A stretch of DNA of 64,000 nt, taken from NCBI GenBank assembly GCA_023665865.1, contig JAMPDC010000001.1:718360-782359 (forward strand), read 5' to 3'. Position numbers and translations under genes: made by a program. Under the pieces are notes generated by a model. It had not been told where the DNA came from. It was given only the letters and a program-made list of their open reading frames with translations, and did not search any database. The stretch comes from Staphylococcus sp. GTDB lineage: Bacteria; Bacteroidota; Bacteroidia; Bacteroidales; Muribaculaceae. Positions 16,912 through 30,998 of the stretch are shown piece by piece; the first letter of the stretch is position 1; each line of letters starts with the position of its first letter.

Positions 16912-19900
16912 TTAGTCATCATCGTCGCCTTCGGTGCCTATAGGATAGTCGGGAAGGGTCGGGGTCTGGGGTTTAGGCTGAGGTTTGGGGACTGCGGGTT
17001 TCTTAGTCTCTGCCGGTTTTGGCTGAGGCTTGGGCACGTCAGATTTCTTTACCGGAGCCACTGGCGCCGCAGGCTTCTCTACGGTTTTAACACTGTCGGC
17101 AGGCGTTGGTTCAGCCTTCGGGACGGTGACAGCCGGTGTTGCCGGTACCGTGTCGGGGACAAGCACAGGCTTTGGTTGCGCCGGTACTGTGTCGGCCGGT
17201 ACTGTGTCGGCCGGTACTGTATCTGCGGGGAGTGCAGCCGGAACCGTGTCAATCTGCACAGGGGTTTCGGACTCATCGGCTGTCTCAGGAGTTTCCGGAG
17301 CAGTATCATACATTTCCTCTGCCGTGGGATACTCTTCGGGCGGAAGCACGGATTCGTGGGTCGCCTTGACGCTCTCCTCGCCGATGAAACGGAAGTAGTC
17401 GTCAAACGATCCGGCTCCCTGCAGCAGTTTCTCGAAGTTACTCTTGCTGATCTGCACCGGACGCACCCCTTCGGGTATGATGACACCATTGTCCTGCGCC
17501 AGGAGCGAGCGGTAGTGGTTGAGCTCAGCCTCATTCTGGAAACCTTTGACGAGAAGGAGACCGAGACGCCCGAAGTTCATCACCTCAAGGTCAAAGTCGC
17601 GGACGACGTAGGTGGTGAAGTTGTGGCGGGCCACATCGTAGAGCAGTCTGTTGGGCGAGATATTCTCGGTCGAGAAGAGGAGCACAAGATAGTGGGGCTC
17701 TTCAGGCGCAAGCACAAACTCAATATTGGCATCTGAGCCGAGAGCCGTGGAGTCGTTTGTCAGACGTATGTCCCAAAGCATACTCCTCATGTTGGAACCG
17801 CCCCCCTTGCGCAGCTCACGTCCCTGAGCCATGCCTTTGAGGTAGGCCGAGGCCATAGGTGTCATGTCAGTGTTAGGATAGCGCTCAAGCATCTCCTTAA
17901 GGGTTGCGTTGAACTCCTCAGGCTTCTCGTCGGTGACAAAGGCGAGAGCGTGGAGGAACATAAATTTCGGCATCAGCGGCGACAGAGGGAAGTCGGCGGT
18001 CATCTGCTCGTAAGCCTTGTGGACACTTGCATTGTCGTCAGACAGATAGGCTTCATAGGCTTTCTCGTAGAGAGCCTCCTGACGGGCGAACATCGTGCGC
18101 AGATTCTCTATGTAGTTGGGATCGGCCATGGCCTTGCCGTAGTCCGACTCCGGAAACTCCGTCAGGATGAGCTGACGGTAGCGTTCGGCCTCGACAGGGC
18201 GGTCACGGCGGACGTTCATGAGATATTCATTGTAGTAGATGTCGAGACGGTAGATATTGTCAGGGTAGCGCCCCATGAGACGCTGCCATTCGCTGTCGGC
18301 AGCATCAAAATCCTCCATCTTGTCTTTCAGAATAAGGCCTGAGTTGAAGAGGCCTTCCCTTATGACATCCTCGGCTGTGGTCTTCTCGACATCGGTCATC
18401 GGGATCTGCCTGAGATAGTATTCACGATAGTGCGGATCGCTGGCCTTGGCGGCTTCCTCAGCCTGCGCTTTGGCCTCCGCACGCTCCTCGTCGGTCATAT
18501 TGTCGGTCTCAGAGCCTTCACCTTCAGCCTCACCCTCGTCCGGCAGATCGTCGGCCGATGAAGATCCGAAGTCACTCATATTGAACGACGACTTGTTGCG
18601 CCGGCGCCAGTCATCCTCCAGCTTTCTCGACCCCCAACGCTTCTGGAAATCAGTTTTACCGGCATTGCGGGTAGCCGTGTTGTAGAAATACCACGAATTG
18701 TCAGTATTGAGCGTGAAAGTGCTGGGCGCGGCAGCATTGTTCTGCACCAGATTGGATCCGGCAGCTTCCTGCTCGGCAAGATACTCAGCGCGCCGTGCTT
18801 CATCTGCCTCTTCCTTCTCTTTCTTTTTGAGATCGTCGATGATCTTGTCAATCACGGCCAGGCGCTCCTCTTCGGGCATTGCGGCCAGACGCAGGAGCGA
18901 GTCGTTGAGGACCACGTTCTGCGTATAGACGGCAAGCTCGTCAAGCACATCGGAACGCCGCTTGAGCATAGCAATCTCCGGATAGGAATCGGGAAGCTGG
19001 GGGACAGCCTCCGCATAGCAAGGCTGAGCCATGTCGTAGCGGGCCTGCTCGTAGTAGAGGCCGCCGAGCGTCACCTGAGAGATCGCTTTCTCAATACCGT
19101 TGCGTGTCGACTTCTCGGCGGCAAGGACATAGTTGGCGATGGCATTGGCTGTGTCGCGGCGCGAGAGATAGAGATTGCCGATGGCGTAGTAGATCTGATC
19201 GAGATACTCCTTGTTGCGGTCATAGCGCGTCATGCGGCGCAGTGAGTTGACCTCAGGAGTGATGTCGGCGCCCTGAAACACCTCGCTCTGCTTGATACGG
19301 GCGTTGAATTTGGTGCGGTATGATGCCGAGTTGGATCCGGCAGCTTTCTTGTAGGCGGTATATGCGGCTGCGTTGTCGCCCTCCGCACTGTATAGCTGTC
19401 CGAGCAGGAAGTTGAGGCGTGTTTTCTGTGCGCCATGCGCATAGCCGAGCGCCTCCTTCAGCATCGGGATGGCCTTTGCATTGTCGTGGGAGCGGACATA
19501 GAAGTCTGCGTAAGTGAAATAGTACAATTCCTTGAGCGTCGACGAGGTCAATTCATCCTCCGTGATGCGTGTCAGGATTGTCTCTGCCTCAAAAAGCCAG
19601 TCGAGACCACAATAGCTGCGTGCCTGCCAGAGCTTAGCCTCAGTGACTGTCGCCGGAAGCCAGGAAAAGTGCTTTGAGATATAGTAGAATGTCGATGCCG
19701 CTCCGAGAAAATCGCCGTTGAAATACTGGCTGCGCCCCATCATCATCCACGCATTGTGAAGGAAGGGGTTATACTCCTCTCTTTTAAGCCATTTCTTGTA
19801 TTCGGGATCGTTGCCCTTGCCGGCCTTGCGTTTGGGGCGCTTCTTGATGCTATGGAGCTGGATTGCTTTCTGGGCCTTCTCGATCGAGCGGGTGAACGAT

Positions 19901-20193
19901 CCGGAGGGCTGCGGAGCCTTGGGATTGGAATATGCCTCGACGGGATGCATCAACACCTGCGATGAATAGTCATCCTCATAGGCCCTTTCCATCTCCTTGA
20001 GAGTCTCCTTATAGTGCTCATCGCCATTGAAATAGACATTGTAACGTGTCAGGAAAGCCTGATAGTTGCGGGTTGCGGCTGTGTTTTTCTTAGGCGAACA
20101 TGCAGGCAAAGCCATGACCGCAATGGTCACAGCTATCAACAGCAAAATCCGCCGGGAAAATGCTTCGGAGAGGCCGACAATCCGTTTTTTCAT
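16912..20193 (-). CDS. porW: PorW/SprE-like TPR lipoprotein of the type IX secretion system
   Basis: 1093 aa from ATG 20193. Lipoprotein signal ending LPACS, then the RYNVYFNGDEHYKETLKEME segment typical of PorW/SprE, and TPR-like helical pairs through about residue 450 (WMMMGRSQYFNGDFLGAASTFYYI, AIGNLYLSRRDTANAIANYV). Acidic and Glu/Ala-rich stretches and a second TPR block to about residue 850 follow. The last 130 residues are Pro/Val/Thr-rich with three ADTVP units. PorW links the outer-membrane translocon to the PorKN ring. An upstream start at 20307 adds no signal and is rejected. Likely transcribed with porX. Confidence 0.87.
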   Translation of the reverse strand: MKKRIVGLSEAFSRRILLLIAVTIAVMALPACSPKKNTAATRNYQAFLTRYNVYFNGDEHYKETLKEMERAYEDDYSSQVLMHPVEAYSNPKAPQPSGSFTRSIEKAQKAIQLHSIKKRPKRKAGKGNDPEYKKWLKREEYNPFLHNAWMMMGRSQYFNGDFLGAASTFYYISKHFSWLPATVTEAKLWQARSYCGLDWLFEAETILTRITEDELTSSTLKELYYFTYADFYVRSHDNAKAIPMLKEALGYAHGAQKTRLNFLLGQLYSAEGDNAAAYTAYKKAAGSNSASYRTKFNARIKQSEVFQGADITPEVNSLRRMTRYDRNKEYLDQIYYAIGNLYLSRRDTANAIANYVLAAEKSTRNGIEKAISQVTLGGLYYEQARYDMAQPCYAEAVPQLPDSYPEIAMLKRRSDVLDELAVYTQNVVLNDSLLRLAAMPEEERLAVIDKIIDDLKKKEKEEADEARRAEYLAEQEAAGSNLVQNNAAAPSTFTLNTDNSWYFYNTATRNAGKTDFQKRWGSRKLEDDWRRRNKSSFNMSDFGSSSADDLPDEGEAEGEGSETDNMTDEERAEAKAQAEEAAKASDPHYREYYLRQIPMTDVEKTTAEDVIREGLFNSGLILKDKMEDFDAADSEWQRLMGRYPDNIYRLDIYYNEYLMNVRRDRPVEAERYRQLILTEFPESDYGKAMADPNYIENLRTMFARQEALYEKAYEAYLSDDNASVHKAYEQMTADFPLSPLMPKFMFLHALAFVTDEKPEEFNATLKEMLERYPNTDMTPMASAYLKGMAQGRELRKGGGSNMRSMLWDIRLTNDSTALGSDANIEFVLAPEEPHYLVLLFSTENISPNRLLYDVARHNFTTYVVRDFDLEVMNFGRLGLLLVKGFQNEAELNHYRSLLAQDNGVIIPEGVRPVQISKSNFEKLLQGAGSFDDYFRFIGEESVKATHESVLPPEEYPTAEEMYDTAPETPETADESETPVQIDTVPAALPADTVPADTVPADTVPAQPKPVLVPDTVPATPAVTVPKAEPTPADSVKTVEKPAAPVAPVKKSDVPKPQPKPAETKKPAVPKPQPKPQTPTLPDYPIGTEGDDDD

Positions 20194-20465
20194 CACTAAT
20201 ATAACGCGCGCATCACACCACTTATTGCGCACTTGACCCATAGTTATTGTCCGCTCGCCACCTATCTGACCGAAAGGCTGTCGCCATTTGCGCGACAGGT
20301 TGTGCAAATTCTCGTTACCGACAGAAAATTAACACTTTAAATTAAGCTTTTTTAGAAAAACATTATTCCGTGGCGGATGTTTTAGATATGTATGACAAGG
20401 GCGCCAAACACACCCCTCACTACAAACCTTCAACAATTACTTACTCATAAACCACACAAACTATT

Positions 20466-21611
20466 ATGGCTGACAAGAAGTATTCACCTGTCGTACAGGA
20501 ACTCGCTGACCTTATTAAAGAAAACAACTGGGAAGACAAATTCAACCAGGCTATCGCAAAGGTAGTTTCCTACAAAATCCCCGGACTCTCAGACATGACC
20601 TCTATCGAGGATTATCTCAACTACCTCGAAGCATACATCCATTGGGTCCCGGCTGAAAACAAGGAAGGTTCCCATGTCTATCAACACCTTTTCCGCTCTT
20701 TCTTCCTTCTCGATCAGGAGCCTGTGAAGTCACTCCAGACCCCTTGTGCCCCGGCTGACCAGATGCCGCCTCTCTCTCCGCTGTCAAAGTGGATGGTAGA
20801 CTATTGCTACGCTATCGGAGACTGGCTCGACAGCCCCGAATCAATCACTGACGACAGCGTGAAATCGTTCTACGAAAGCGCCGTGTACAACATGGATGAA
20901 TACCTCGAACCGCGCGGCGGCTGGAAGACATTCAACCAGATGTTTGCCCGCCACGTGAAACCCGGCTACCGTCCTATCGCAGCCATTGACGACGATAAGA
21001 TCATCGTACACCCGGCCGACGCTTGCTTCGGTGGCCAGTGGGAAATCCGCCCCGACACCCACGTCCGTATCAAGGGCCTTGACTGGAGTATCGACGAGCT
21101 TCTCGAAGGCAGCCCTTACAAGGATAAATTCAAGGGCGGCATGTGGTGTCACTCATTCCTCAGCTGGACCGACTATCATCGTCAGCATGCGCCTCTGTCA
21201 GGTATCGTCCGCGAGGCACGTGTCATCCAGGGAGCCTGCTATGTAGACCTCGTCGCAGTCCCCGACAAAGTCAACCCTGCTACCAACCAGGTAGAGGCAT
21301 GGCGCGCCACCGCTCCTGACCAGGCCGGCTATGAATTCATGCAGACCCGTGGTCTTATCGTCCTCGAGACAAAATATGGCTATGTGGCCATCCTCCCGAT
21401 CGCAATGCCTCAGGTATCTTCAGTCGTCATCACTGCCGAGGAAGGCGTAGCCCTCAAGAAAGGCGATGAGATTTCTTACTTCCAGTTTGGCGGTTCAGAC
21501 ATCGTCTACCTCTTCTCAGCCAATATGAACGTATCAATGTCAGCCCACTTAGGCACACACTACAAAGTCGGCACCAAGATCGGTGAAATCTATCCTGTAG
21601 TGGAGCTCTAA
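20466..21611 (+). CDS. PsiD-like pyruvoyl decarboxylase of the phosphatidylserine decarboxylase superfamily
   Basis: 381 aa. No signal peptide or membrane anchor. Residues 1-150 match the extra N-terminal domain found in PsiD-type members, not in membrane PSD. The catalytic part shows WKTFNQMFARHVKPGYRP (153-170), HPAD with Asp185, YHRQHAPLSG with His238 and His241, and YFQFGGSD where Ser344 would form the pyruvoyl group by cleavage after Gly343. Classical PSD has LGST at this place. Fungal PsiD of this superfamily decarboxylates tryptophan. With a GadC-like antiporter next door, I infer a soluble amino acid decarboxylase; the substrate is unknown. Phosphatidylserine remains possible but less likely. 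Confidence 0.82.
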   Translation: MADKKYSPVVQELADLIKENNWEDKFNQAIAKVVSYKIPGLSDMTSIEDYLNYLEAYIHWVPAENKEGSHVYQHLFRSFFLLDQEPVKSLQTPCAPADQMPPLSPLSKWMVDYCYAIGDWLDSPESITDDSVKSFYESAVYNMDEYLEPRGGWKTFNQMFARHVKPGYRPIAAIDDDKIIVHPADACFGGQWEIRPDTHVRIKGLDWSIDELLEGSPYKDKFKGGMWCHSFLSWTDYHRQHAPLSGIVREARVIQGACYVDLVAVPDKVNPATNQVEAWRATAPDQAGYEFMQTRGLIVLETKYGYVAILPIAMPQVSSVVITAEEGVALKKGDEISYFQFGGSDIVYLFSANMNVSMSAHLGTHYKVGTKIGEIYPVVEL

Positions 21612-21692
21612 GACAACAACTGACTTACCAAATCCCGACTCAAGCGCAGCTTGATCCAGACATTCAACCGTCCCGCGACGGGACGCGACTCT

Positions 21693-21729
21693 AACGGGAG
21701 GCCGGCATCTCCGCCCGCCTCCCGTTTTT
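21693..21729 (+). terminator. Terminator or attenuator between decarboxylase and antiporter
   Basis: AACGGGAGGC (21693-21702) pairs with GCCTCCCGTT (21717-21726), followed by TTT. It lies 81 bases after the decarboxylase stop and 50 bases before the antiporter ATG, so some transcripts may stop here. Confidence 0.7.
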
Positions 21730-21778
21730 CCATACCTTTACACACATATACTTTAACATCTTTCATATCTTAGGCATT

Positions 21779-23509
21779 ATGGCTACCACCCCATCACCAC
21801 AGCCGTCGAAAAAACCTAAGGGAAATACACCTTCGAAGACTCTGATCTCAACCGGAGCGATGACCGTCATGATCATCACCACCGTGGTCAGTCTCCGAGG
21901 TCTTCCTTCGCAGGCTGAATTCGGCATTCAGTCCATTTTCTACTATCTCTTTGCAGCGATCGTCTTTCTGGTACCCTTCTCGCTCGTCTGCGCGGAGCTC
22001 GCTTCAACCTACACTCATTCAGGCGGCCTATACCGCTGGGTATCCGAAGCCTTCGGCCCGCGCTGGGGCTGGTCGGCAATGTATCTCGAATGGCAGACTC
22101 TCGTCATCTGGTTTCCGGCGGTGCTGATGTTTGCAGCCGTCTCGCTGGCCTATATATTCTGGCCTGAATCGTTTGACGCAAAACTGTCGGCCAACAAGAT
22201 ATATACTCTTATTGTCGTACTTGCGATCTACTGGATCACCAATTTCATCGCCTTCAGAGGCATGAAATCGTCCAAAATCCTCAGCACGCTCGGAGGTCTT
22301 TTCGGCACGATCGTCCCCGGAGCCATCCTTATCATCCTCGGTGTCGCCTATCTATGCATGGGCAAGCCGATCATGCTCACCCACGAGTCATTTTTCCCTG
22401 ACTTCTCGAAAATCGGCACCATAGTCCTCGCCGCCTCCGTCTTTCTCTTCTATGGCGGCATGGAGATGAATGCCGTCCATGTCCAGAACATGAAGAACCC
22501 CGCACGCCAGTTCCCGCGCGCCATCTTTCTCGCTGTGGCTGTCATCGTGCTCCTCTTCGTCTTCGCCACGCTTGCCATCGGCTTCGTGGTCCCGGTCAAA
22601 GATATCAACCTCCTCGCATCGCTCCTCGTGGCCTACAATGACCTCTGGGCAGCGGTCGGTGTGCCCTGGCTCGGCAATGTCATGGCCCTCCTCATCACTT
22701 TCGGTGTCATCGGTCAGGTCAGCGTCATCATAGCCGGCCCGTCGACAGGTCTTGTCGCTGTAGGCGAGAGCGGCTATCTGCCACGCAGTCTCCAAAAGAC
22801 CAACAAGCAGGGTGTCAACAAACCGATCCTCTACGTGCAGGCCTGCTTCGTGACCCTGCTCGCCTTCGTGCTCGTCGTTCTCCCCTCGGTTGAGTCAGCC
22901 TATCAGGTGATGTCGCAGATGGCCACCGTCATCTACCTCATCCTCGTGCTCATGATCTACTTCGCCTTTATCCGTCTGCGCCACACCCAGCCTCAGAAGC
23001 AGCGTGGATTCCGCATCCCGGGTGGGAAATTAGGTGAAGTGGTCGTCGCCGGCATAGGTATCCTCGGTGCCCTCGTCGCTATGATCCTCAGTTTCTTCCC
23101 GCCGTCACAGATCAACACCGGCAGTCCTGCCGTCTATGTCCTCATAATCCTCGTGGGTGCGGTCGTCTTCTTCTGTGTACCGCTGATCGTGTTTGCAAAG
23201 CGCAAACCGTCATGGCGAAATCCGGATGCCGACTTCTATCCCTTCGACTGGCAGATTGAAAACCGTAAACCGTCAGAGATCTCCAAATGGAGTCCCGACT
23301 ATGTCCCTACTGAAGCCGATGTCGCCGCCACCGACGCACGAATAATCGCTGAAGAGAACGGCGCGACTCCTCAGGAAGCGGCCAAGATTGCCGCACAGGC
23401 TGCCAAAGCCTACAATGGATCAGAAGATCCGGAGGCTACAGCCTATACGGTCATCAACGATGACAACCAACAGGCTCCACCGGCTGCCGACAAATCAGAT
23501 GGTGTCTAA
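21779..23509 (+). CDS. GadC-like amino acid antiporter, APC superfamily
   Basis: 576 aa with about 12 membrane segments from residue 20 to 480. Family marks: STGAMTVMIITTVVSLRGLP in helix 1, CAELASTYTHSGGLYRWV and FGPRWGWSAMYLEWQ, which closely parallel the glutamate/GABA antiporter GadC. The last 90 residues are polar and acidic (DFYPFDWQIEN, then an Ala/Glu-rich tail); GadC also has a C-terminal plug that closes at neutral pH. It probably exchanges the decarboxylase substrate for its amine product. The gap to the decarboxylase is 167 bases with a hairpin. Confidence 0.87.
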   Translation: MATTPSPQPSKKPKGNTPSKTLISTGAMTVMIITTVVSLRGLPSQAEFGIQSIFYYLFAAIVFLVPFSLVCAELASTYTHSGGLYRWVSEAFGPRWGWSAMYLEWQTLVIWFPAVLMFAAVSLAYIFWPESFDAKLSANKIYTLIVVLAIYWITNFIAFRGMKSSKILSTLGGLFGTIVPGAILIILGVAYLCMGKPIMLTHESFFPDFSKIGTIVLAASVFLFYGGMEMNAVHVQNMKNPARQFPRAIFLAVAVIVLLFVFATLAIGFVVPVKDINLLASLLVAYNDLWAAVGVPWLGNVMALLITFGVIGQVSVIIAGPSTGLVAVGESGYLPRSLQKTNKQGVNKPILYVQACFVTLLAFVLVVLPSVESAYQVMSQMATVIYLILVLMIYFAFIRLRHTQPQKQRGFRIPGGKLGEVVVAGIGILGALVAMILSFFPPSQINTGSPAVYVLIILVGAVVFFCVPLIVFAKRKPSWRNPDADFYPFDWQIENRKPSEISKWSPDYVPTEADVAATDARIIAEENGATPQEAAKIAAQAAKAYNGSEDPEATAYTVINDDNQQAPPAADKSDGV

Positions 23510-23546
23510 AACCACACTCTAAAACTTATCTGTGGGGTAAGGTGTG

Positions 23547-23603
23547 ATCCCGCGTTTGGGGGAGGAGACACGGCCCTCTGGGCCCTCTCCCCCAAACCGG
23601 GAT
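23547..23603 (+). terminator. Long terminator/attenuator hairpin before the MFS gene
   Basis: ATCCCGCGTTTGGGGGAG pairs with CTCCCCCAAACCGGGAT with one bulge; an inner GGCCCTCTGGGCC hairpin sits at the tip. It lies in the 166-base gap between the antiporter and the MFS carrier, followed by TTATCTTT. Confidence 0.7.
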
Positions 23604-23675
23604 TATCTTTCAGCGCCATCCTTCTTTCCCCTCATCTCCTCTTTTTCCAACCTTACCTTCAAAAGCATCCGCCAA

Positions 23676-25007
23676 ATGAAAATCAATACGGGCAAAGGAT
23701 CCATCCCCTTGATGACTCTGATCGCCATCTGGTCGATCTCACTCGTCGTCAACCTGCCCGGACTCGCAATCACCCCGATGATGGGAAGTCTTGACAAGAT
23801 TTTTCCACACACTTCCGAGCTTGAGATACAGCTCCTGACCGTGTTGCCAAACCTTTTCATCATCCCCTTCGTGTTGCTTTCGGGCAAACTGTCGCTCTCA
23901 AAGAGTAAAATCTCTATCGTAGTCGTGGCGCTGATCATCTATCTGGCAAGCGGCATACTCTATCTCTTTGCCCGGAGCATGGTGGCATTGATTGTCATCA
24001 GCTGTCTGCTCGGCATCGGTTGCGGACTCCTCATCCCTCTCGCCGCCGGGCTCCTCACCGACACCTTTGTCGGTAAATACCGCATGAAACAACTCGGCAT
24101 CAAGTCGGGCATATCCAACATCGCTCTCGTCATCGCCACCTTTGTCGTCGGCTGGCTCAACCACGGCAACTGGCATCTGCCATTTCTCGTCTATCTCATC
24201 CCGGCCATCCCGCTGGCGCTCTCCGTCTTCCTCAAAGGGATCCCGGCAGCCGACCTCAATCCGGCGACAGTGACTCCGCCTCCGGGGGTCAAGGCCACGG
24301 TCAAGACAGCCCAGCGCGTAGCCATCGCAGGCTCACCCGCCAAGTCGGTCAAGGCCGCTCCACCTACAGCAGCGACCATCGCCGCGGCCTCGGCAGGGCG
24401 CCACGTAAGAGACGGTTTCATCCTCCCGCGCATGTGGTCACTGATAGCAGTCTATTTCTTCGTATGCTATGCCTCTGTGATCGTATCGTACTATGCACCG
24501 TTTCTCATGGAGAGCTACGGCATGGGCGACTCGAAAGTCGGCACCATCTCGGCGATCTTCTTCCTCGCCGTCTTCCTGCCCGGCTTCATTCTTCCGGTCA
24601 TCATCAGGATCTTCAAGCAGACCACTTTGCTCTTCTCGTCGCTCGTCATGGCGGTCGGTATCATCCTGATGGTCGCCACACGCAGTTTCGCGGTCATCTG
24701 CATCGCCTCAGTCCTCGTTGGGCTCGGCTACGGAATATTCCAGCCTCTGATCTACGACAAGGCAACGCAGATCGTGACCACTCCTGTCAAGTCGACGCTC
24801 GCTCTCGCCTTCGTGCTTGCCGCAAACTATATCTCGATCAGTCTGACTCCGTTTATCGTCGACTTCTTCCGCGATATTTTCGACCCGCACCATCTCAACA
24901 ATGCGTTTCCCTTCGTCCTCAACTCTATTCTGCTCGTCATATTCACAATAATTGTGGTGATATTCCGCAAATCATTCGTGTTCAGTATCGACCGCTCCTA
25001 CTATTAA
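23676..25007 (+). CDS. MFS transporter
   Basis: 443 aa from ATG 23676. Twelve hydrophobic segments; IGCGLLIPLAAGLLTDTFVGKYRMKQLGIKSG between helices 4 and 5 is MFS-like. The loop between the two six-helix halves (about residues 190-250) is unusually long and built of Ala, Pro, Thr and Lys (VTPPPGVKATVKTAQR, AAPPTAATIAAASAG). The second half opens with RMWSLIAVYFFVCYASVIVSYY. Substrate not recognisable. Location suggests import of the decarboxylase substrate or export of the amine. The outer-membrane barrel gene follows after 31 bases. Confidence 0.82.
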   Translation: MKINTGKGSIPLMTLIAIWSISLVVNLPGLAITPMMGSLDKIFPHTSELEIQLLTVLPNLFIIPFVLLSGKLSLSKSKISIVVVALIIYLASGILYLFARSMVALIVISCLLGIGCGLLIPLAAGLLTDTFVGKYRMKQLGIKSGISNIALVIATFVVGWLNHGNWHLPFLVYLIPAIPLALSVFLKGIPAADLNPATVTPPPGVKATVKTAQRVAIAGSPAKSVKAAPPTAATIAAASAGRHVRDGFILPRMWSLIAVYFFVCYASVIVSYYAPFLMESYGMGDSKVGTISAIFFLAVFLPGFILPVIIRIFKQTTLLFSSLVMAVGIILMVATRSFAVICIASVLVGLGYGIFQPLIYDKATQIVTTPVKSTLALAFVLAANYISISLTPFIVDFFRDIFDPHHLNNAFPFVLNSILLVIFTIIVVIFRKSFVFSIDRSYY

Positions 25008-25038
25008 CTTCCTCTAACTTCCAACCCACAGCCAGACT

Positions 25039-26340
25039 ATGAACCCAACGTTTCGCTACATGGCATTGCTTCCCGCACTCTGTGCGCTCCCTCTGTTGGG
25101 ACAGAACCATCCGACCACACCTGAATACCAGGAGGTGACCATCATCAATCCGGGCTCCCGGGGAGCAGACACGACGACCGTCGATGTCTACAACGTCTTT
25201 CTCGACAATGCCCCGAAGAGCTACAGGATCCCCGGCGCTCCGCGCTTTGCCATCGAGGGCAAGGATAAGAAATTCTATCTCGGAATCGGCGGCACCGGTA
25301 AGGTGACCCTCTCTTACGACTGGGGGAATCCTATCGACAACGCCTATGATTTCACCACCTCTGCCATCCCGATGCAGCAGCGCAAGGGTGACGGCGGACT
25401 CGTGCAGGCAAGCGCTGCCACGAGCGGACTTTTCGTTAACTTCGTGGCTCTCCCCGCGACCAAAAATCAAATCGGCTTCTATTTCAACTTCAATCTCACC
25501 GGCAACGGCAACAACTATGGATTCAACCTGTTTTATGCCTACGTGAAATATCGCGGATTCACCGCCGGCTACGATTTCAGTCTCTTCTCCGACATGGCTG
25601 CCGCTCCCCCGAGCATCGACAACGAAGGCCCGTGTGGATTCACGGCAATTCCCAATACCGTCATTGACTACCGTCATTCGTTCAACTCCCACTGGAGCAT
25701 CGGCGTCGGGGCCGAGATGCCGATGGCTTCAGCCACGACAGGCGACAAGACCTACATGGTCCGCCAACGTGTCCCCGACATACCGGCCTACGTGCAATAT
25801 TCATGGGGAGGGGGCAAGAGCTGGCTCCGCGTCTCGGGCATTGTCCGCAACATGCTCTATCGTGACGTCGTAGCCGACAAAAACCGCGACGTCGCAGGCT
25901 GGGGTGTCAAGATGAGCGGCAGCGCTTCGCTCTCGCCCTTCATCACGGCCTACTATCAGGCCGCCTACGGAAAGGGAATCACGAGCTACTTCCAGGATCT
26001 CTATGAGGGCGGACTCGACATGGTTCCCGACGGCACAGGGCGTCTCGAGGCTGTCAAGGCCTGGGGTGGATACTTAGGCCTCCAATACAATATCTCACCG
26101 AAAGTATATGCAACCACCACCTATAGCCACCTGCGCAACTATGCCCACCGCTATGACGATGGTTCCACTCCGTGGTCCTCACAGTATAAATATGCCCAGT
26201 ATGCTCTCGCCAATGTCATCTGGCAGATCACACCTCAGATTTCCACAGGTCTTGAGTATATCTACGGACGGCGTGTCGACATGGACGGTATCTCGCGCCA
26301 CGACAACCGCATCCAGACCATGCTTCAGGTCACATTCTGA
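25039..26340 (+). CDS. DcaP-like outer-membrane porin
   Basis: 433 aa with a signal peptide ending at LLGQ. The N-terminal part has YRIPGAPRFAIEGKDKKFYLGIGGTGKVTLSYDWG, then alternating strands rich in Tyr/Trp/Phe with Gly turns, ending in VTF with a terminal Phe as usual for barrels. This fits the DcaP trimeric porin family, whose members pass small charged solutes. Being last in the run decarboxylase, antiporter, MFS, porin, it may let the substrate cross the outer membrane. Confidence 0.78.
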   Translation: MNPTFRYMALLPALCALPLLGQNHPTTPEYQEVTIINPGSRGADTTTVDVYNVFLDNAPKSYRIPGAPRFAIEGKDKKFYLGIGGTGKVTLSYDWGNPIDNAYDFTTSAIPMQQRKGDGGLVQASAATSGLFVNFVALPATKNQIGFYFNFNLTGNGNNYGFNLFYAYVKYRGFTAGYDFSLFSDMAAAPPSIDNEGPCGFTAIPNTVIDYRHSFNSHWSIGVGAEMPMASATTGDKTYMVRQRVPDIPAYVQYSWGGGKSWLRVSGIVRNMLYRDVVADKNRDVAGWGVKMSGSASLSPFITAYYQAAYGKGITSYFQDLYEGGLDMVPDGTGRLEAVKAWGGYLGLQYNISPKVYATTTYSHLRNYAHRYDDGSTPWSSQYKYAQYALANVIWQITPQISTGLEYIYGRRVDMDGISRHDNRIQTMLQVTF

Positions 26341-26420
26341 AAGCCACAATATCAAGCAAGCAGGCCGTTCCTCCGGCAAGACACGAAAATACCTTGCATG
26401 GATTAGAGAAAGAGGTACAG

Positions 26421-26498
26421 AAATTCAAAATTGACACAAATAACAAATGATTATATTCAAAAAAATATACATCTGTTATTTGTGTCAATTTTGAATTT
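26421..26498 (+). repeat. 25-base perfect inverted repeat after the porin gene
   Basis: Arms 26421-26445 and 26474-26498 are perfect complements, entirely AT-rich (AAATTCAAAATTGACACAAA... and its complement), around a 28-base loop and followed by TT. The position fits a terminator, but the length and lack of GC fit better with a small mobile-element remnant. The bases between 26341 and 26421 show no gene. Confidence 0.7.
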
Positions 26499-26533
26499 TT
26501 CGTATTGTAACCTCAAACCTACCACCCCCCTAT

Positions 26534-26579
26534 AAAAAAAAATTGTCCGCTGCCCCTTTCAATCAAGGAGCAACAGGAC
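26534..26579 (-). terminator. Intrinsic terminator of the small RNA
   Basis: Minus strand: GTCC-T-GTTGCTCCTT, loop GATTGA, AAGGGGCAGC-GGAC, then AA and nine T (plus-strand A run 26534-26542). Confidence 0.85.
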
Positions 26580-26797
26580 CAAAGCCAAAAAGGCGTCAAA
26601 AATAGTTGTCTAAACTATTCCTTTCCAATAATGTAGAGATTATATCATACTTACACTACACCATCGTTGCCTTGAGAAAGCGTCGTCTCGACGCGCTTCA
26701 AGCCAAAGTTGCCTTTTTTCCTTAGTCCAAAAAATATGAATTTAATGCGTAAAATTTTATCAGCCCAAGGACTGCAACTATTGTGGTGTTTTCTTTT
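26534..26797 (-). ncRNA. Candidate 6S-like small RNA
   Basis: A transcript unit with no ORF. A consensus promoter ends at 26804 and a strong terminator ends at 26534, giving about 264 bases. The core 26782-26601 is 182 bases: its ends AATAGTTG and CAACTATT pair; inside, TCCTT pairs with AAGGA and TTTACGC with GTGTAAG. Exactly in the middle is a hairpin CTTGA...GCGTCG-AGA-CGACGC...TCAAG. This long symmetric rod of about 180 bases is the plan of 6S RNA, which binds sigma-A RNA polymerase. The 3' AACTATT can also pair locally with AATAGTT, a switch seen in 6S release. Covariance-model support is lacking here. Confidence 0.6.
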
Positions 26798-26803
26798 CAC
26801 TTG

Positions 26804-26834
26804 CAAAGGTAACAACTATTTCCAAATGCGACAA
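26804..26834 (-). promoter_or_regulatory. Promoter of the small RNA
   Basis: Minus strand TTG (26834-26832), 20-base spacer, TACCTTTG (26811-26804). Confidence 0.75.
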
Positions 26835-26906
26835 TCTTTTAACATAGCGATTAATATTTTTTAATACTTCCCCGTGAACAATTTCCGGTCTGCCCCTACT
26901 AAACAC

Positions 26907-26936
26907 AGAAGTGCCGGGACTATGCCCGGCACTTCT
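26907..26936 (-). terminator. Terminator after the serpin gene
   Basis: Twelve-pair perfect stem AGAAGTGCCGGG / CCCGGCACTTCT with a 6-base loop, 24 bases past the serpin stop. No long T-run. Confidence 0.7.
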
Positions 26937-26959
26937 ATATAAGGGAGTTGTTAAAAAAA

Positions 26960-28165
26960 TCAATAACCCAATCTAACCACTTTACCGACAAAAAGGATAG
27001 CATTGGTGCTGTATTCCTCGATAATAAATATAAACGGACGGTTGATATGGATTCTATTCTCGTTTGGACCGGGACTCCCATATCCACCACTTATATTTGA
27101 AACCGTCGCTACCTCCGCTCCCGATTCATCAATCTTAACCGAAGTATATTGCTTGATCTCAAGACCGGTTGCACTCTTGTCATCCGTCATATTTTCTATC
27201 TCTACCGTCCTATTACAATCCAGCCCCATATTACTCATTACCTCTTTTAGGTCCGGATTATAATTTATATTAAATTTCGGGATTAAAATATCAACATCTC
27301 TTATATATAGTGACTCCTTGAGTTCCATCCACTTATCCAGATCCAGACCGGATATCACATCATTTATGTCATGTCCTTCTTCGGCCATCACTACATACAT
27401 TGAAATGGCGCGGTTGCCGTATGGCAACTGAACGACCGTTGTTCTCTCATCGCCTCCTATGTTGACCGCTAATCTTTGGTTCATGGTTGCCACCTTGACT
27501 TCGGAATTGCCATAATTGAAAAATGACTCATCTTGGGTCGACACGAACTTCACGGGCCATGCTGCTTTGAAGTGCACCGCATCGAGAAGCATGAATTTTG
27601 TAGTCGGATCTATAAAATTATATGGAAATATATTCTTGATGACTCCGTCTGTCGCTTCCTTGCACCAGCCATTGATTTTCCCGACGGTAGAATTATCCAA
27701 GAAATCCACCTGTTCCACCGCTGCATTGTAATGGGTCCTTATCATATCCATATAGGATTCCTTGACGGGAAACTTATCAGAATACCAGAATGAGTTTGCC
27801 ACATTGAGAGCAACATCGCTGTCGGCATCCAGCAGTGCCTGGAGCAGAATACTGTTGAGTTCGTTAAGCTCCGCCACCGATTCTCCCTCGCCCATGTGGA
27901 GCATCCGCATGACTGCATCGAGAGTCTCCCCCGAAGCTCCGTTGGCAAACATCGAGAGATCTCTCGCCATACTGAGTGGCGAGATTGCAAAATTTATGTT
28001 ATTGCCTGCAATTTCCTCTTGGTTAACAGCCTTGAGAAAATCGAAAGCGAAACGCGATTCATTATCTACATAAGTCTGCTGGGAGCGGGATAGCGGGATT
28101 TCGGTCCGGGGCTTCTTGCTGACCGCAGGCTCGTCATCTGACGACGTGCAGCTGAAAAAAGCCAT
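26960..28165 (-). CDS. Serpin, lipoprotein form with interrupted signal peptide
   Basis: 401 aa from ATG 28165. Serpin marks: NINFAISPLSMARDLSMFANGASGETLDAVMRML near the N-terminus, NSFWYSDKFPVKESY, INGWCKEATDGVI, FMLLDAVHFKAAWPVKF, and the C-terminal INRPFIFIIEEYSTNAILFVGKV. The reactive-loop hinge reads DESGAEVATVSNIS, partly matching the EEGTEAAAAT form of inhibitory serpins. Serpins trap proteases by cleavage of this loop. Translation from 28165 leaves only five residues before the lipidation Cys; the rest of the signal lies upstream behind an in-frame TGA. It sits 34 bases after a C10 protease gene in the same direction. Confidence 0.85.
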   Translation of the reverse strand: MAFFSCTSSDDEPAVSKKPRTEIPLSRSQQTYVDNESRFAFDFLKAVNQEEIAGNNINFAISPLSMARDLSMFANGASGETLDAVMRMLHMGEGESVAELNELNSILLQALLDADSDVALNVANSFWYSDKFPVKESYMDMIRTHYNAAVEQVDFLDNSTVGKINGWCKEATDGVIKNIFPYNFIDPTTKFMLLDAVHFKAAWPVKFVSTQDESFFNYGNSEVKVATMNQRLAVNIGGDERTTVVQLPYGNRAISMYVVMAEEGHDINDVISGLDLDKWMELKESLYIRDVDILIPKFNINYNPDLKEVMSNMGLDCNRTVEIENMTDDKSATGLEIKQYTSVKIDESGAEVATVSNISGGYGSPGPNENRIHINRPFIFIIEEYSTNAILFVGKVVRLGY

Positions 28166-28244: not shown

Positions 28245-29648
28245 TTATTTTATATAATACATTTGAGTAGATCTACGGTCAAACTTATTTCCGCCTGCTT
28301 CCCATTCGGTACACCATGCGTCAAAATAAGTATCATTCTGAGAACCTCCCCAACCCCAGTTCATCTTAAAATAAGTCTTGGATGAGAATTCCCGTTCAAT
28401 TATGATTTCGCCAAAAAGAGCTTCCAATTCAGCCAACGTAATTTCCGGATAAAGATCCGGCCATTCCGCATCTGGGGGCAATGGAGAAGTTGTATAATAA
28501 TTGTAGTATTCTGTCCATTCTGACTCATAGTAATCAATTAAATATGCATGACCAATATTACTGCCATTTATACTGCTTCTTACCACTACAGGATAACCTT
28601 TTTCTAAAACAGAGGCAACATTTCCTGAATCAGCTGACTTTATATCCAGATCAAGGCCTGTTTGATTTTTAAAAAAATTCACACTTATATCAGAGATTGT
28701 CTGTGCCGTCGAACCGTCAGGCCTATGAATTCCTTTATCATCGAATCTATTGTATATCTTTCCATAATCGGTATTTATTGATTTCCCTATATACCCAAGA
28801 AAAATCGCAGTAGGTTTCATATATTCAGGCATGTACCACTTATCAGGATTAGAATTGAACGAATCCCAAACAGAGGAACTTGATCCGGAATATGAGTAAG
28901 TATTGTTTGTGCTATTATATTGCGCATCAGTGACAGTCGCTACAGGACGGCCAAAGTTGTAATGTGAATGATAGAAAAATTGCCCCAAAGCCACTGCCAC
29001 ACACCCCACAGGTGCATGAATAGATGTTTCATCTCTATAAAATGGAGTGTATAGATTGTAATAGCTATCTTGGTCCCACTTGGTTATCAATCGGCCCCCT
29101 TTAGGCATTAAAATCTTAGTGGTAACTTTCGGTTCAGAAGATATTAGAAATTGTTTCTCATCATTTGCATCGGAATATAATTGAAATTCATTGTTAAACA
29201 GTTTCCATTCGCTGCAAATCGTGTCATTCACGATATCCTTTGAATTCCTTATTCCGGCAATGGCATTTGCTGTTTGGTCAAATATTTCCCTCGCAGGATG
29301 TGAATTATCGATAGAATCCAGGTCAAAATGACCGTATGGCGACTTCATCAAAAGCATGGGGACAGACACTTCGTTTGAGAAGACTTCCCAACCTCCGTTA
29401 TCGCCATAATTCACAATATACATAACGGTGTCACCATTAAGAAGATATGGAGTCATCGACATCTCCCCTGAACGGGACTGCTTCGGATGATTCTTCTTAA
29501 CGTAGTTACTGATTGCAACCATTTCAGGTGTTATCTCATCAGAATCCACTGACTTCTGCATCGGCATGTCTGGCGACATGGTGTTTTCGGCACACGAAAT
29601 CAACAAAATCAGGCAAGACAAGGTAAATAAATAAGGTTTTGTTTTCAT
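28245..29648 (-). CDS. C10 family (streptopain-like) cysteine protease, lipoprotein
   Basis: 467 aa. Lipoprotein signal ending LISC (Cys19). A propeptide of about 165 residues precedes the protease. Catalytic Cys216 in APVGCVAVALGQ, His367 in IGHAYLIDYYE, and a KMNWGWGGSQND loop near residue 425, as in SpeB. C10 proteases are secreted and activated by propeptide cleavage; Bacteroides fragilis has several next to inhibitor genes. Here the downstream neighbour is a serpin. AT-rich codon use sets the pair apart from the GC-rich genes around it. Confidence 0.9.
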   Translation of the reverse strand: MKTKPYLFTLSCLILLISCAENTMSPDMPMQKSVDSDEITPEMVAISNYVKKNHPKQSRSGEMSMTPYLLNGDTVMYIVNYGDNGGWEVFSNEVSVPMLLMKSPYGHFDLDSIDNSHPAREIFDQTANAIAGIRNSKDIVNDTICSEWKLFNNEFQLYSDANDEKQFLISSEPKVTTKILMPKGGRLITKWDQDSYYNLYTPFYRDETSIHAPVGCVAVALGQFFYHSHYNFGRPVATVTDAQYNSTNNTYSYSGSSSSVWDSFNSNPDKWYMPEYMKPTAIFLGYIGKSINTDYGKIYNRFDDKGIHRPDGSTAQTISDISVNFFKNQTGLDLDIKSADSGNVASVLEKGYPVVVRSSINGSNIGHAYLIDYYESEWTEYYNYYTTSPLPPDAEWPDLYPEITLAELEALFGEIIIEREFSSKTYFKMNWGWGGSQNDTYFDAWCTEWEAGGNKFDRRSTQMYYIK

Positions 29649-29665
29649 AGCAAAAATATTTTTGG

Positions 29666-29834: not shown

Positions 29835-30998
29835 ATGAAGAATATCATACTTTTTGACCCGGTTGAAGCCCGGGCAGCTCTCCTTCCGCTGACACTCACC
29901 CGTCCCGTAGCGCTCATACGCCATGGCATCACCACTCTCTCCGAGAAGTGGCAGAAAGCCATCCCCGGAACTTACTCATATTCTACCCAGGACTATCTGT
30001 CGATGAAATATCCCATGATTGAAGCCGCCGACGGCGACAATCTCTTCATCGCAGGCAATCTTCATCCCGACAGCTCTCTTGTCGAAGCCATCCTCGCTCT
30101 TCAGCCCGGTCAGGCCCTCGTGGATGGCGAGACCATCCTTGCCCGACGCGGCAACGGCACTCCCACTGACCATATCGCATATTCCGGCCCCGCACCCTTG
30201 GCCGTCAACCATATCTGGGACATCTTCATGACCAACGGTGAAGCCGTGGAGCGCGACTTCGCCGCCTTGACCGAGGGCCGGGAGTCGCAGCCCCTCAGCC
30301 CGACCTGCCGCCTCATCGGCGACCCCTCTCAGCTCTTCATCGAGGAGGGTGCCACGGTCGAAGGCGCTATCATCAACGTCAGCAAAGGCCCGGTCTACGT
30401 CGGGCGTGACGCCGAAATCATGGAAGGCGCCTGCCTCCGCGGCCCGATAGCCCTCTGCGAGCATGCCGTGGTCAACATGGGTGGCAAGATCTATGGCGCC
30501 ACCACTCTCGGCCCCTACTGCAAGGTGGGCGGCGAGCTCAACAATGTCGTGATGACCGGCTTCTCCAACAAAGCCCACGACGGTTTCCTCGGCAACGCCG
30601 TCATCGGCGAATGGTGTAACCTCGGAGCCGGCTGCACTGCCTCAAATCTCAAAAACACCTACGCTCCGGTCAAAATATGGTCAATGGCTGAGGGACGCTT
30701 CGTCAAAACCGACCTCCAGTTCTGCGGACTCATCATGGGCGACCACTCGAAGGCCGGCATCAACACGATGTTCAACACGGCGACAGTCGTCGGCGTCGGC
30801 GTCAACTTCTATGGCGCAGGCTTCCCGCGCACCTTCCTTCAGTCGTTTACCGAAGGCTCTCCCCTCGGGATGAAGCCCGTGATCCTCGACCGCTTCTTCG
30901 ACACCGCCTCACGCATGATGGCACGCCGCCACAAGGAGCTGACCGCGGTCGACAAAGAGATCTTCGTCACCATCCTGCAGCAGACGACGGGAGACTGA
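29835..30998 (+). CDS. Bacteroidetes GlmU-like sugar nucleotidyltransferase/acetyltransferase
   Basis: 387 aa. N-terminal part opens IILFDPVEARAALLPLTLTRPVALIRHGI, a changed nucleotidyltransferase start with an Arg-rich LTRPVA loop. The C-terminal half is a left-handed beta helix of hexapeptides (GATVEGAIINVSKGPVYVGRDAEI, CKVGGELNNVVMTGFSNKAHDGFLGNAVIGEWCNLGAG). This arrangement matches the alternative bacterial GlmU family (TIGR03991 type), proposed to make UDP-GlcNAc where classical GlmU is missing. The aminotransferase gene follows after 57 bases. Confidence 0.88.
   Translation: MKNIILFDPVEARAALLPLTLTRPVALIRHGITTLSEKWQKAIPGTYSYSTQDYLSMKYPMIEAADGDNLFIAGNLHPDSSLVEAILALQPGQALVDGETILARRGNGTPTDHIAYSGPAPLAVNHIWDIFMTNGEAVERDFAALTEGRESQPLSPTCRLIGDPSQLFIEEGATVEGAIINVSKGPVYVGRDAEIMEGACLRGPIALCEHAVVNMGGKIYGATTLGPYCKVGGELNNVVMTGFSNKAHDGFLGNAVIGEWCNLGAGCTASNLKNTYAPVKIWSMAEGRFVKTDLQFCGLIMGDHSKAGINTMFNTATVVGVGVNFYGAGFPRTFLQSFTEGSPLGMKPVILDRFFDTASRMMARRHKELTAVDKEIFVTILQQTTGD

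Follow-up and report, generated by a model that had tools for sequence, protein, structure and literature searches.

The system described here lies in a stretch of 64,000 nucleotides (positions 718360-782359 of contig 1; hereafter the window) of a Muribaculaceae genome of 2.69 Mb that is 88.75% complete. Gene calls and a domain scan place four genes in series on the plus strand, just as the initial annotation had it: a phosphatidylserine decarboxylase (PSD)-family enzyme, an amino acid-polyamine-organocation (APC) antiporter, a major facilitator superfamily (MFS) carrier and a porin. The first two are the candidates for a pyruvoyl-type amino acid decarboxylase/antiporter pair. The features on which the argument draws are the following.

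20466..21611, plus strand: PSD-superfamily pyruvoyl decarboxylase of PsiD/arginine-decarboxylase-like architecture, 381 aa, probably soluble
20466..20849, plus strand: PsiD-type N-terminal domain, about residues 1-128 (model against PsiD from residue 6; hhalign of the N-termini)
21018..21020, plus strand: Asp185, aligned with Asp90 of E. coli PSD (D in 88 and E in 8 of 96 members)
21177..21188, plus strand: HRQH, with His238 and His241 aligned with His144 and His147 of E. coli PSD (H238 in 96/96, H241 in 95/96)
21486..21497, plus strand: FGG/S self-cleavage site with Ser344 as the expected pyruvoyl residue (aligned with the C-terminus of the PsiD chain deposited in the PDB; invariant in 96/96)
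21779..23509, plus strand: APC antiporter of the GadC family, clade I, which is not the clade paired with glutamate decarboxylase (TIGR03813, 623 bits, cut-off 650)
22715..22717, plus strand: Gln313 at the position of E. coli GadC Glu304 (Gln in 73/73 clade I rows)
22946..22948, plus strand: Val390 at the position of E. coli GadC Tyr382 (Val in 62/73 clade I rows, Tyr in 6/6 clade II rows)
23673..25007, plus strand: MFS carrier, apparently an optional accessory (MFS_1, E 8e-33)
25039..26340, plus strand: outer-membrane porin, Porin_2 (E 2e-12; DcaP-like below cut-off), apparently an optional accessory

Predicted fold and catalytic residues of the enzyme

PS_Dcarbxylase (PF02666) is the sole Pfam family matched by the enzyme (149.8 bits, cut-off 22). 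In the predicted model the overall fold, N-terminal domain included, matches the PsiD/arginine decarboxylase type (PSDC + PSD): the nearest folds, as listed by VIA-align, which cannot exclude others, are fungal PsiD, a tryptophan decarboxylase, followed by the arginine decarboxylase of Aspergillus oryzae, both aligned from residue 4-6 on. The initial annotation had proposed modelling the protein against PsiD and PSD; PsiD fits from residue 6, whereas the fit to the E. coli lipid PSD does not begin until about residue 76. Whole-length profile comparison gave a match probability of 99.9% with a protein that combines PF12588 and PF02666, versus 0.9% with one of the lipid PSDs of the same genome. 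The proposed PsiD-type N-terminal domain is upheld by the fold model and by hhalign of the N-termini alone against PF12588-type proteins (E 3.4e-5, probability 72%, match ending at residue 128), but not by the PF12588 hidden Markov model, which found no match in the enzyme at E 10.

The FGGS site that had been pointed out is indeed present, in every one of 96 family members, and G343/S344 aligns with the end of the PsiD chain (the alignment and the enzyme tree were built without one PF12588-type neighbour in locus L128). D185, H238 and H241 align with D90, H144 and H147 of E. coli PSD, whose roles in that enzyme we take as given. The initial annotation had allowed that homologues with this site might turn out to be lipid decarboxylases; a partial check found that the nearest characterised GG/S relatives by fold act on amino acids.

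Two relatives of the enzyme deserve mention. In L128 (352-3166), from a Pyrinomonadaceae metagenome-assembled genome, a window-type enzyme stands in tandem with a PF12588+PF02666 (PsiD-type) gene. A distant relative in L075 (9534-10796; genome G041) may be periplasmic because its start, judged by eye, resembles a lipoprotein signal.

Conservation of the enzyme/antiporter pair

A scan of a one-genome-per-species collection returned 367 relatives, and the best 80, representing 79 loci, were retained. From the record titles we labelled 61 of these loci Bacteroidales-type, including L093, L095 and L104, which are titled with Bacillota names, and 18 as other lineages (environmental Bacteroidota, Caulobacter, Andreprevotia, Acidobacteriota, Chloroflexota, Verrucomicrobiota and others); locus and genome counts include the distant enzyme matches G041 and G140. 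In 53/61 Bacteroidales-type loci the antiporter gene immediately follows the enzyme gene on the same strand, and in 57/61 it lies somewhere in the locus, but it was not found in the flanks examined of any of the 18 other-lineage loci. The neighbourhood survey suggested by the initial annotation thus finds the antiporter kept beside the decarboxylase in Bacteroidales and not outside them.

The association is equally evident at the level of genomes. Among 198 genomes of the family, 40 carry the enzyme, 41 the clade I antiporter (see below) and 38 both (Fisher p 1e-34). The two genomes with the enzyme alone are G041 and G140, with distant relatives of 33 and 36% identity; in the three with the clade I antiporter alone (G076, G096, G106), a pyridoxal 5'-phosphate (PLP)-dependent decarboxylase lies directly 5' of the antiporter.

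The other two genes follow the pair less faithfully, and the four-gene module that had been envisaged as a unit did not hold up. Downstream MFS genes on the same strand were found in 25/61 Bacteroidales-type loci and downstream porin genes in 22/61, and window-type MFS genes also occur at two glutamate decarboxylase (GAD) loci, L221 (genome G194) and L222 (genome G167), the former with the porin as well. Given these frequencies and their presence beside GAD, the MFS carrier and the porin look like optional accessories of decarboxylation loci in general. The PLP decarboxylase is located upstream on the same strand in 5/61 loci, and apart from enzyme, antiporter, MFS, porin and PLP decarboxylase no gene cluster recurs in more than three of the 40 loci of the family survey.

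In 11/61 loci two to three enzyme copies stand in a row, and L103 has three, with an antiporter interposed. The copies within such loci share 57-77% identity, which is compatible with different substrates being served by one exchanger. The complete four-gene cluster is also present in a cultured type strain, Duncaniella muris DSM 103720, with an enzyme 95% identical to that of the window. In Duncaniella sp. NALB_7823_3 (L102, 2980-8931), a lone, different enzyme of 57% identity sits between homologues of the window flanks (16912-20307 and 29835-30998, judged by eye from sequence starts); the same chromosomal site therefore carries different versions.

Two antiporter clades with different decarboxylase partners

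The antiporter, described in the initial annotation as closely resembling GadC, does belong to the GadC family, but it misses both curated GadC equivalog cut-offs (623 of 650 bits on TIGR03813, the Gln/GABA antiporter model, and 456 of 640 on the other). GadC-family proteins of the 198 genomes form two clades: clade I, at least 54% identical to the window's antiporter, and clade II, 43-49% identical. For the counts that follow, 150 bits on PF00282 is our own line between GAD and a weakly matching PLP family; two weak antiporter matches (G060, G030), a second fragment of G108, second pieces of a PF00282 gene and PF00282 matches below the family cut-off are omitted. The 51 clade I copies comprise 33 within 6 kb of the enzyme, five with both enzyme and PLP decarboxylase, three with the PLP decarboxylase alone and 10 with neither. 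Among the 26 clade II copies, 24 lie within 6 kb of a strong PF00282 decarboxylase and two have it on another contig; the one clade II partner scanned is a glutamate decarboxylase (TIGR01788, 545.6 bits, cut-off 380.4).

This division is mirrored in profile scores, phylogeny and individual residues. On TIGR03813, 11/11 clade I proteins scanned (two from the same locus) scored 570-632 bits, and 3/3 clade II proteins scanned scored 782-794. The six GAD-paired antiporters placed in the tree form a single clade with 99% support in the Shimodaira-Hasegawa-like approximate likelihood ratio test (the tree holds 78 sequences longer than 380 residues plus those of the window and E. coli, without the second copy of the window's genome; E. 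coli GadC sits on a very long branch, and the rooting is uncertain). At three positions that we take to be important in E. coli GadC, the clades compare as follows: Glu304, replaced by Gln throughout clade I, is kept in 2/6 clade II rows; Tyr382 is kept in 1/73 clade I rows versus all six of clade II; and at Tyr30 both clades have Arg.

The solitary clade I copies are mostly found in enzyme-bearing genomes (7/10 in genomes that also carry the close enzyme group, the window's genome among them), and the nine included in the tree are interspersed with paired copies, which suggests that they are leftovers of an older pair. The solitary copy of the window's own genome (L076, 9357-11084; C1:2550498) is its second clade I antiporter, has no decarboxylase neighbour and is followed by an apparent class A beta-lactamase gene, judged by eye.

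The PLP decarboxylases found beside clade I antiporters form a family of 582-587 aa (L050:7589-9346, L223:3765-5516). Neither of the two members scanned comes near any NCBI cut-off; the scores include 69.7 bits for the TyrDC model (cut-off 905), 81.5 of 900 for the diaminobutyrate decarboxylase model, and a match far below cut-off for an aspartate decarboxylase model. The L050 protein has DFHK at the presumed PLP lysine, and the best PDB matches (61 bits) are 620-residue decarboxylases, which we take to be tyrosine decarboxylases. Judging from gene order, this PLP decarboxylase can replace or accompany the PSD-type enzyme beside the same antiporter.

Selection and history

Selection on both genes is evident from substitution rates. 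The ratio of non-synonymous to synonymous substitution rates for the enzyme was 0.016-0.061 in eight comparisons, the ninth having saturated synonymous sites, and about 0.02 within the close group; for the antiporter it was 0.043-0.066 in seven comparisons. In the enzyme tree a long stem leads to the window's group, whose inner branches are short. A recent horizontal spread of this 92-96% identical group was considered and rejected: its synonymous sites are near saturation, so the short inner branches reflect slow protein change and not a recent sweep.

An independent pairing of the PSD fold with antiporters

On a Photobacterium damselae plasmid, the gene immediately after that of a basic amino acid/polyamine antiporter (TIGR00905, 489.9 bits, cut-off 409) encodes a PF12588+PF02666 protein, and on an Enterobacter cancerogenus plasmid a 47% identical protein, taken to be of the PsiD type, also lies behind such an antiporter. 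Judging from these plasmid pairs, the PSD fold has probably gained antiporter partners on two or more occasions, and in one case the antiporter is of a class compatible with arginine. No such antiporter appears in the possibly incomplete gene tables of five other PsiD-type loci (Lactobacillus intestinalis, Mycetohabitans, two from Plesiomonas and Burkholderia multivorans), and an antiporter search gave no match in these five or in the unannotated Aeromonas locus L245. Close relatives of the window's enzyme were not found on plasmids: 55 plasmid records matched, all below 60% identity, and the 20 listed are 26-35% identical.

The likely substrate

What the pair may decarboxylate can be narrowed down to some extent. 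By comparison with the plasmid pairs, the GadC-type exchanger argues against a basic amino acid, and the distinctness of clade I from the partner clade of glutamate decarboxylase argues against glutamate; judging from these gene partnerships, the substrate is probably neither. Three weak hints, none of them decisive, lean toward neutral or aromatic amino acids: the match to PsiD, the interchangeable PLP decarboxylase, and secondary matches to an L-type amino acid transporter model in 4/11 clade I versus 0/3 clade II proteins. Weak matches to histidine/histamine and arginine/agmatine models also occur in clade I proteins. A large neutral or aromatic amino acid is our first guess from sequence, a weak one that could well be wrong.

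Two further leads on the substrate were dropped. Aspartate decarboxylation to beta-alanine for coenzyme A, raised by a PanB gene upstream in L109 and L110 (only the L110 copy was scanned), was rejected, PanD being encoded in the window's own genome and in 181/198 genomes of the family; PanB-like starts also occur, by eye, in L097 and L098 in a similar block, so this neighbourhood looks like synteny. A W/Y-type tRNA synthetase gene upstream in L153, a possible hint at tryptophan, is a single case and was not used.

Alternative readings of the locus

The alternative that survives best casts the enzyme as a pyruvoyl glutamate (or glutamine-route) decarboxylase standing in for the PLP enzyme GadB and yielding gamma-aminobutyric acid (GABA). 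The antiporter's best NCBI family is, after all, the Gln/GABA antiporter, and the window's genome, within its 88.75%, has no PF00282 decarboxylase, yet holds two glutaminase genes elsewhere. L111 (10272-11198), from the same genome as L053, has a glutaminase-like gene behind enzyme, antiporter and MFS that is 35% identical to a GAD-locus glutaminase; together with the glutaminases of the window's genome, it keeps a glutamate/glutamine reading alive. Enzyme and GAD also occur together in only 2/198 genomes, fewer than expected (Fisher p 0.03). Those two genomes, G167 and G194, however, each hold both complete systems, and the GAD-side antiporters form a separate clade whose scanned members pass the Gln/GABA cut-off that the scanned clade I proteins miss, with Glu304 and Tyr382 replaced in 73/73 and 72/73 clade I rows. 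Moreover, the glutaminase-like gene accompanies one of the 79 enzyme loci, not the window's, versus 4/6 GAD loci fetched, an arrangement beside GAD already described for Bacteroides in the consulted part of PMC8082179. We therefore set a simple replacement of GadB aside as an unlikely, lesser reading.

Alternatively, the decarboxylase could be biosynthetic, its amine being used inside the cell, as may hold for the environmental homologues, with the gut antiporter only importing the amino acid or handling some other substrate. The lack of the antiporter from the other-lineage flanks would fit, as would the aminotransferase and S51 peptidase genes beside some of these homologues. In the gut family, though, no further gene cluster recurs in more than three loci, and beta-alanine for coenzyme A is already supplied through PanD; we regard this reading as quite improbable. 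As an observation in its own right, eight other-lineage loci (L123, L134, L138, L146, L147, L148, L154, L156) have neighbours in common, of which one example each was scanned: catalase (two loci), a membrane-like protein of about 160 aa (five), a class I/II aminotransferase (two), an S51 peptidase (five) and a DUF155-type protein (three).

Finally, it is highly improbable that the enzyme is a soluble decarboxylase of phosphatidylserine or a related phospholipid or headgroup beside an unrelated transporter, to which the sole Pfam match and a highest 19-residue hydropathy mean of 1.64 (barely over the 1.6 often used for a membrane span, though on strands predicted at 306-324) could be held to point, since every NCBI lipid PSD model is missed (98.6 of 371 bits; TIGR00163, 82.5 of 111.75), two PSDs that pass the NCBI short-PSD model (251 and 258 bits, cut-off 225), one adjoining a CDP-alcohol phosphatidyltransferase, are encoded elsewhere in the genome, the predicted fold and N-terminal domain are of the PsiD type, and the antiporter is conserved beside the enzyme.

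Surroundings of the cluster

No Rfam model exceeded its gathering score in a riboswitch and leader RNA scan of 19800-27000. A Bacteroidales-type promoter pattern, in the form we presume it to have, has seven exact matches in the window (0.56 expected), none of them at the cluster, and generic promoter and terminator scans did no better than on shuffled sequence. Just 3' of the porin gene, at 26396-26529, several sub-threshold microRNA-type Rfam matches fall on both strands of one spot, which may mark a strong hairpin, for instance a terminator or an inverted repeat. Downstream of the cluster follow a serpin gene and an adjoining C10-type peptidase gene (26960-28165 and 28245-29654, both on the minus strand).

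Discussion

The proposal of a pyruvoyl-type amino acid decarboxylase/antiporter pair, as a predicted function, is well supported by fold, active-site residues, conserved neighbourhood and a separate antiporter clade. We consider it likely that the locus encodes a soluble PSD-fold pyruvoyl amino acid decarboxylase/antiporter system that would consume protons and export an amine. As the conserved residues suggest, the 381-residue proenzyme would cleave itself between Gly343 and Ser344, converting Ser344 into the pyruvoyl group. By analogy with how such systems work, an amino acid would enter through the clade I GadC-type exchanger and form a Schiff base with the pyruvoyl group, CO2 would be released and a proton consumed, and the amine would leave through the same exchanger; the net result would be proton consumption, proton motive force and delivery of an amine to the gut. 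Porin and MFS carrier, where present, would probably aid passage of amino acid or amine, and the tandem enzyme copies of some relatives would probably broaden the substrate range on one shared exchanger.

More tentatively, and with rather more doubt than belief, we raise the possibility of a further pyruvoyl decarboxylase/antiporter class on the PSD fold in many gut Muribaculaceae, in which one to three PSD-type enzymes of differing specificity use one dedicated exchanger in common, are interchangeable with a PLP decarboxylase of unrelated origin and discharge neutral or aromatic (trace) amines into the gut.

If the decarboxylase/antiporter assignment is true, bacteria, and not fungi alone, would have put the PSD fold to use on amino acids, and a family called dominant in the mouse gut in the available part of PMC6381624 would have an amine route hidden behind a lipid annotation. 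Such bacteria may then produce and export an amine through a pathway invisible to surveys of gut amine producers, which would overlook proteins with PS_Dcarbxylase as their sole Pfam match. One survey of human gut decarboxylases, published in 2025, lists three pyruvoyl groups, for histidine, aspartate and arginine, and the terms phosphatidylserine, PsiD and PF02666 are absent from its main text (PMC12484125). D. muris DSM 103720, as a cultured carrier of the cluster, makes the prediction readily testable.

A search of the open literature, which leaves out most subscription journals, turned up no account of a PSD-type decarboxylase/antiporter pair. What is already known is that PSD-fold enzymes act on amino acids in fungi and that the pyruvoyl enzyme HdcA occurs with gadC-like antiporters in gut bacteria. 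Fungal L-tryptophan decarboxylase PsiD (PDB 8x4q, 8zia) shares with the window's enzyme the PSD-fold pyruvoyl type, the extra N-terminal domain, the FGG/S site and the top rank among fold matches, but at 15-18% identity and with a PF12588 profile that has no counterpart match in the bacterial protein; according to the text seen of PMC6121855, it has a GGSS motif and accepted tryptophan as substrate but none of Phe, Tyr and 5-hydroxytryptophan. The A. oryzae arginine decarboxylase (PDB 9jer, 9jf5; as cited in PMC12283126, in the portion consulted), the second-best fold match though 18% identical, shows that the PSD fold is turned to more than one amino acid. Bacterial PsiD-type proteins were seen beside a basic amino acid antiporter, whereas the window type stands beside one of the GadC family.

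The GadB-glutaminase-GadC systems of Bacteroidales likewise combine a decarboxylase with an APC antiporter, with MFS and porin possibly flanking, but employ a PLP enzyme and an antiporter of the other clade, whose scanned members pass the Gln/GABA cut-off. The tyrosine decarboxylase and TyrP of Enterococcus and Lactobacillus are echoed by the PDB and TyrDC matches of the PLP decarboxylase linked to clade I, a protein that nevertheless lies far below the TyrDC cut-off and scores higher on the diaminobutyrate model. HdcA with gadC/aaxC-type antiporters in gut bacteria is likewise a pyruvoyl enzyme with an antiporter, including loci with two decarboxylases and one transporter (from the part seen of PMC8465708), but HdcA belongs to another family (PF02329) than PF02666. 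We file the window's system with the decarboxylase/antiporter kind, as neither a PsiD nor a GadBC system.

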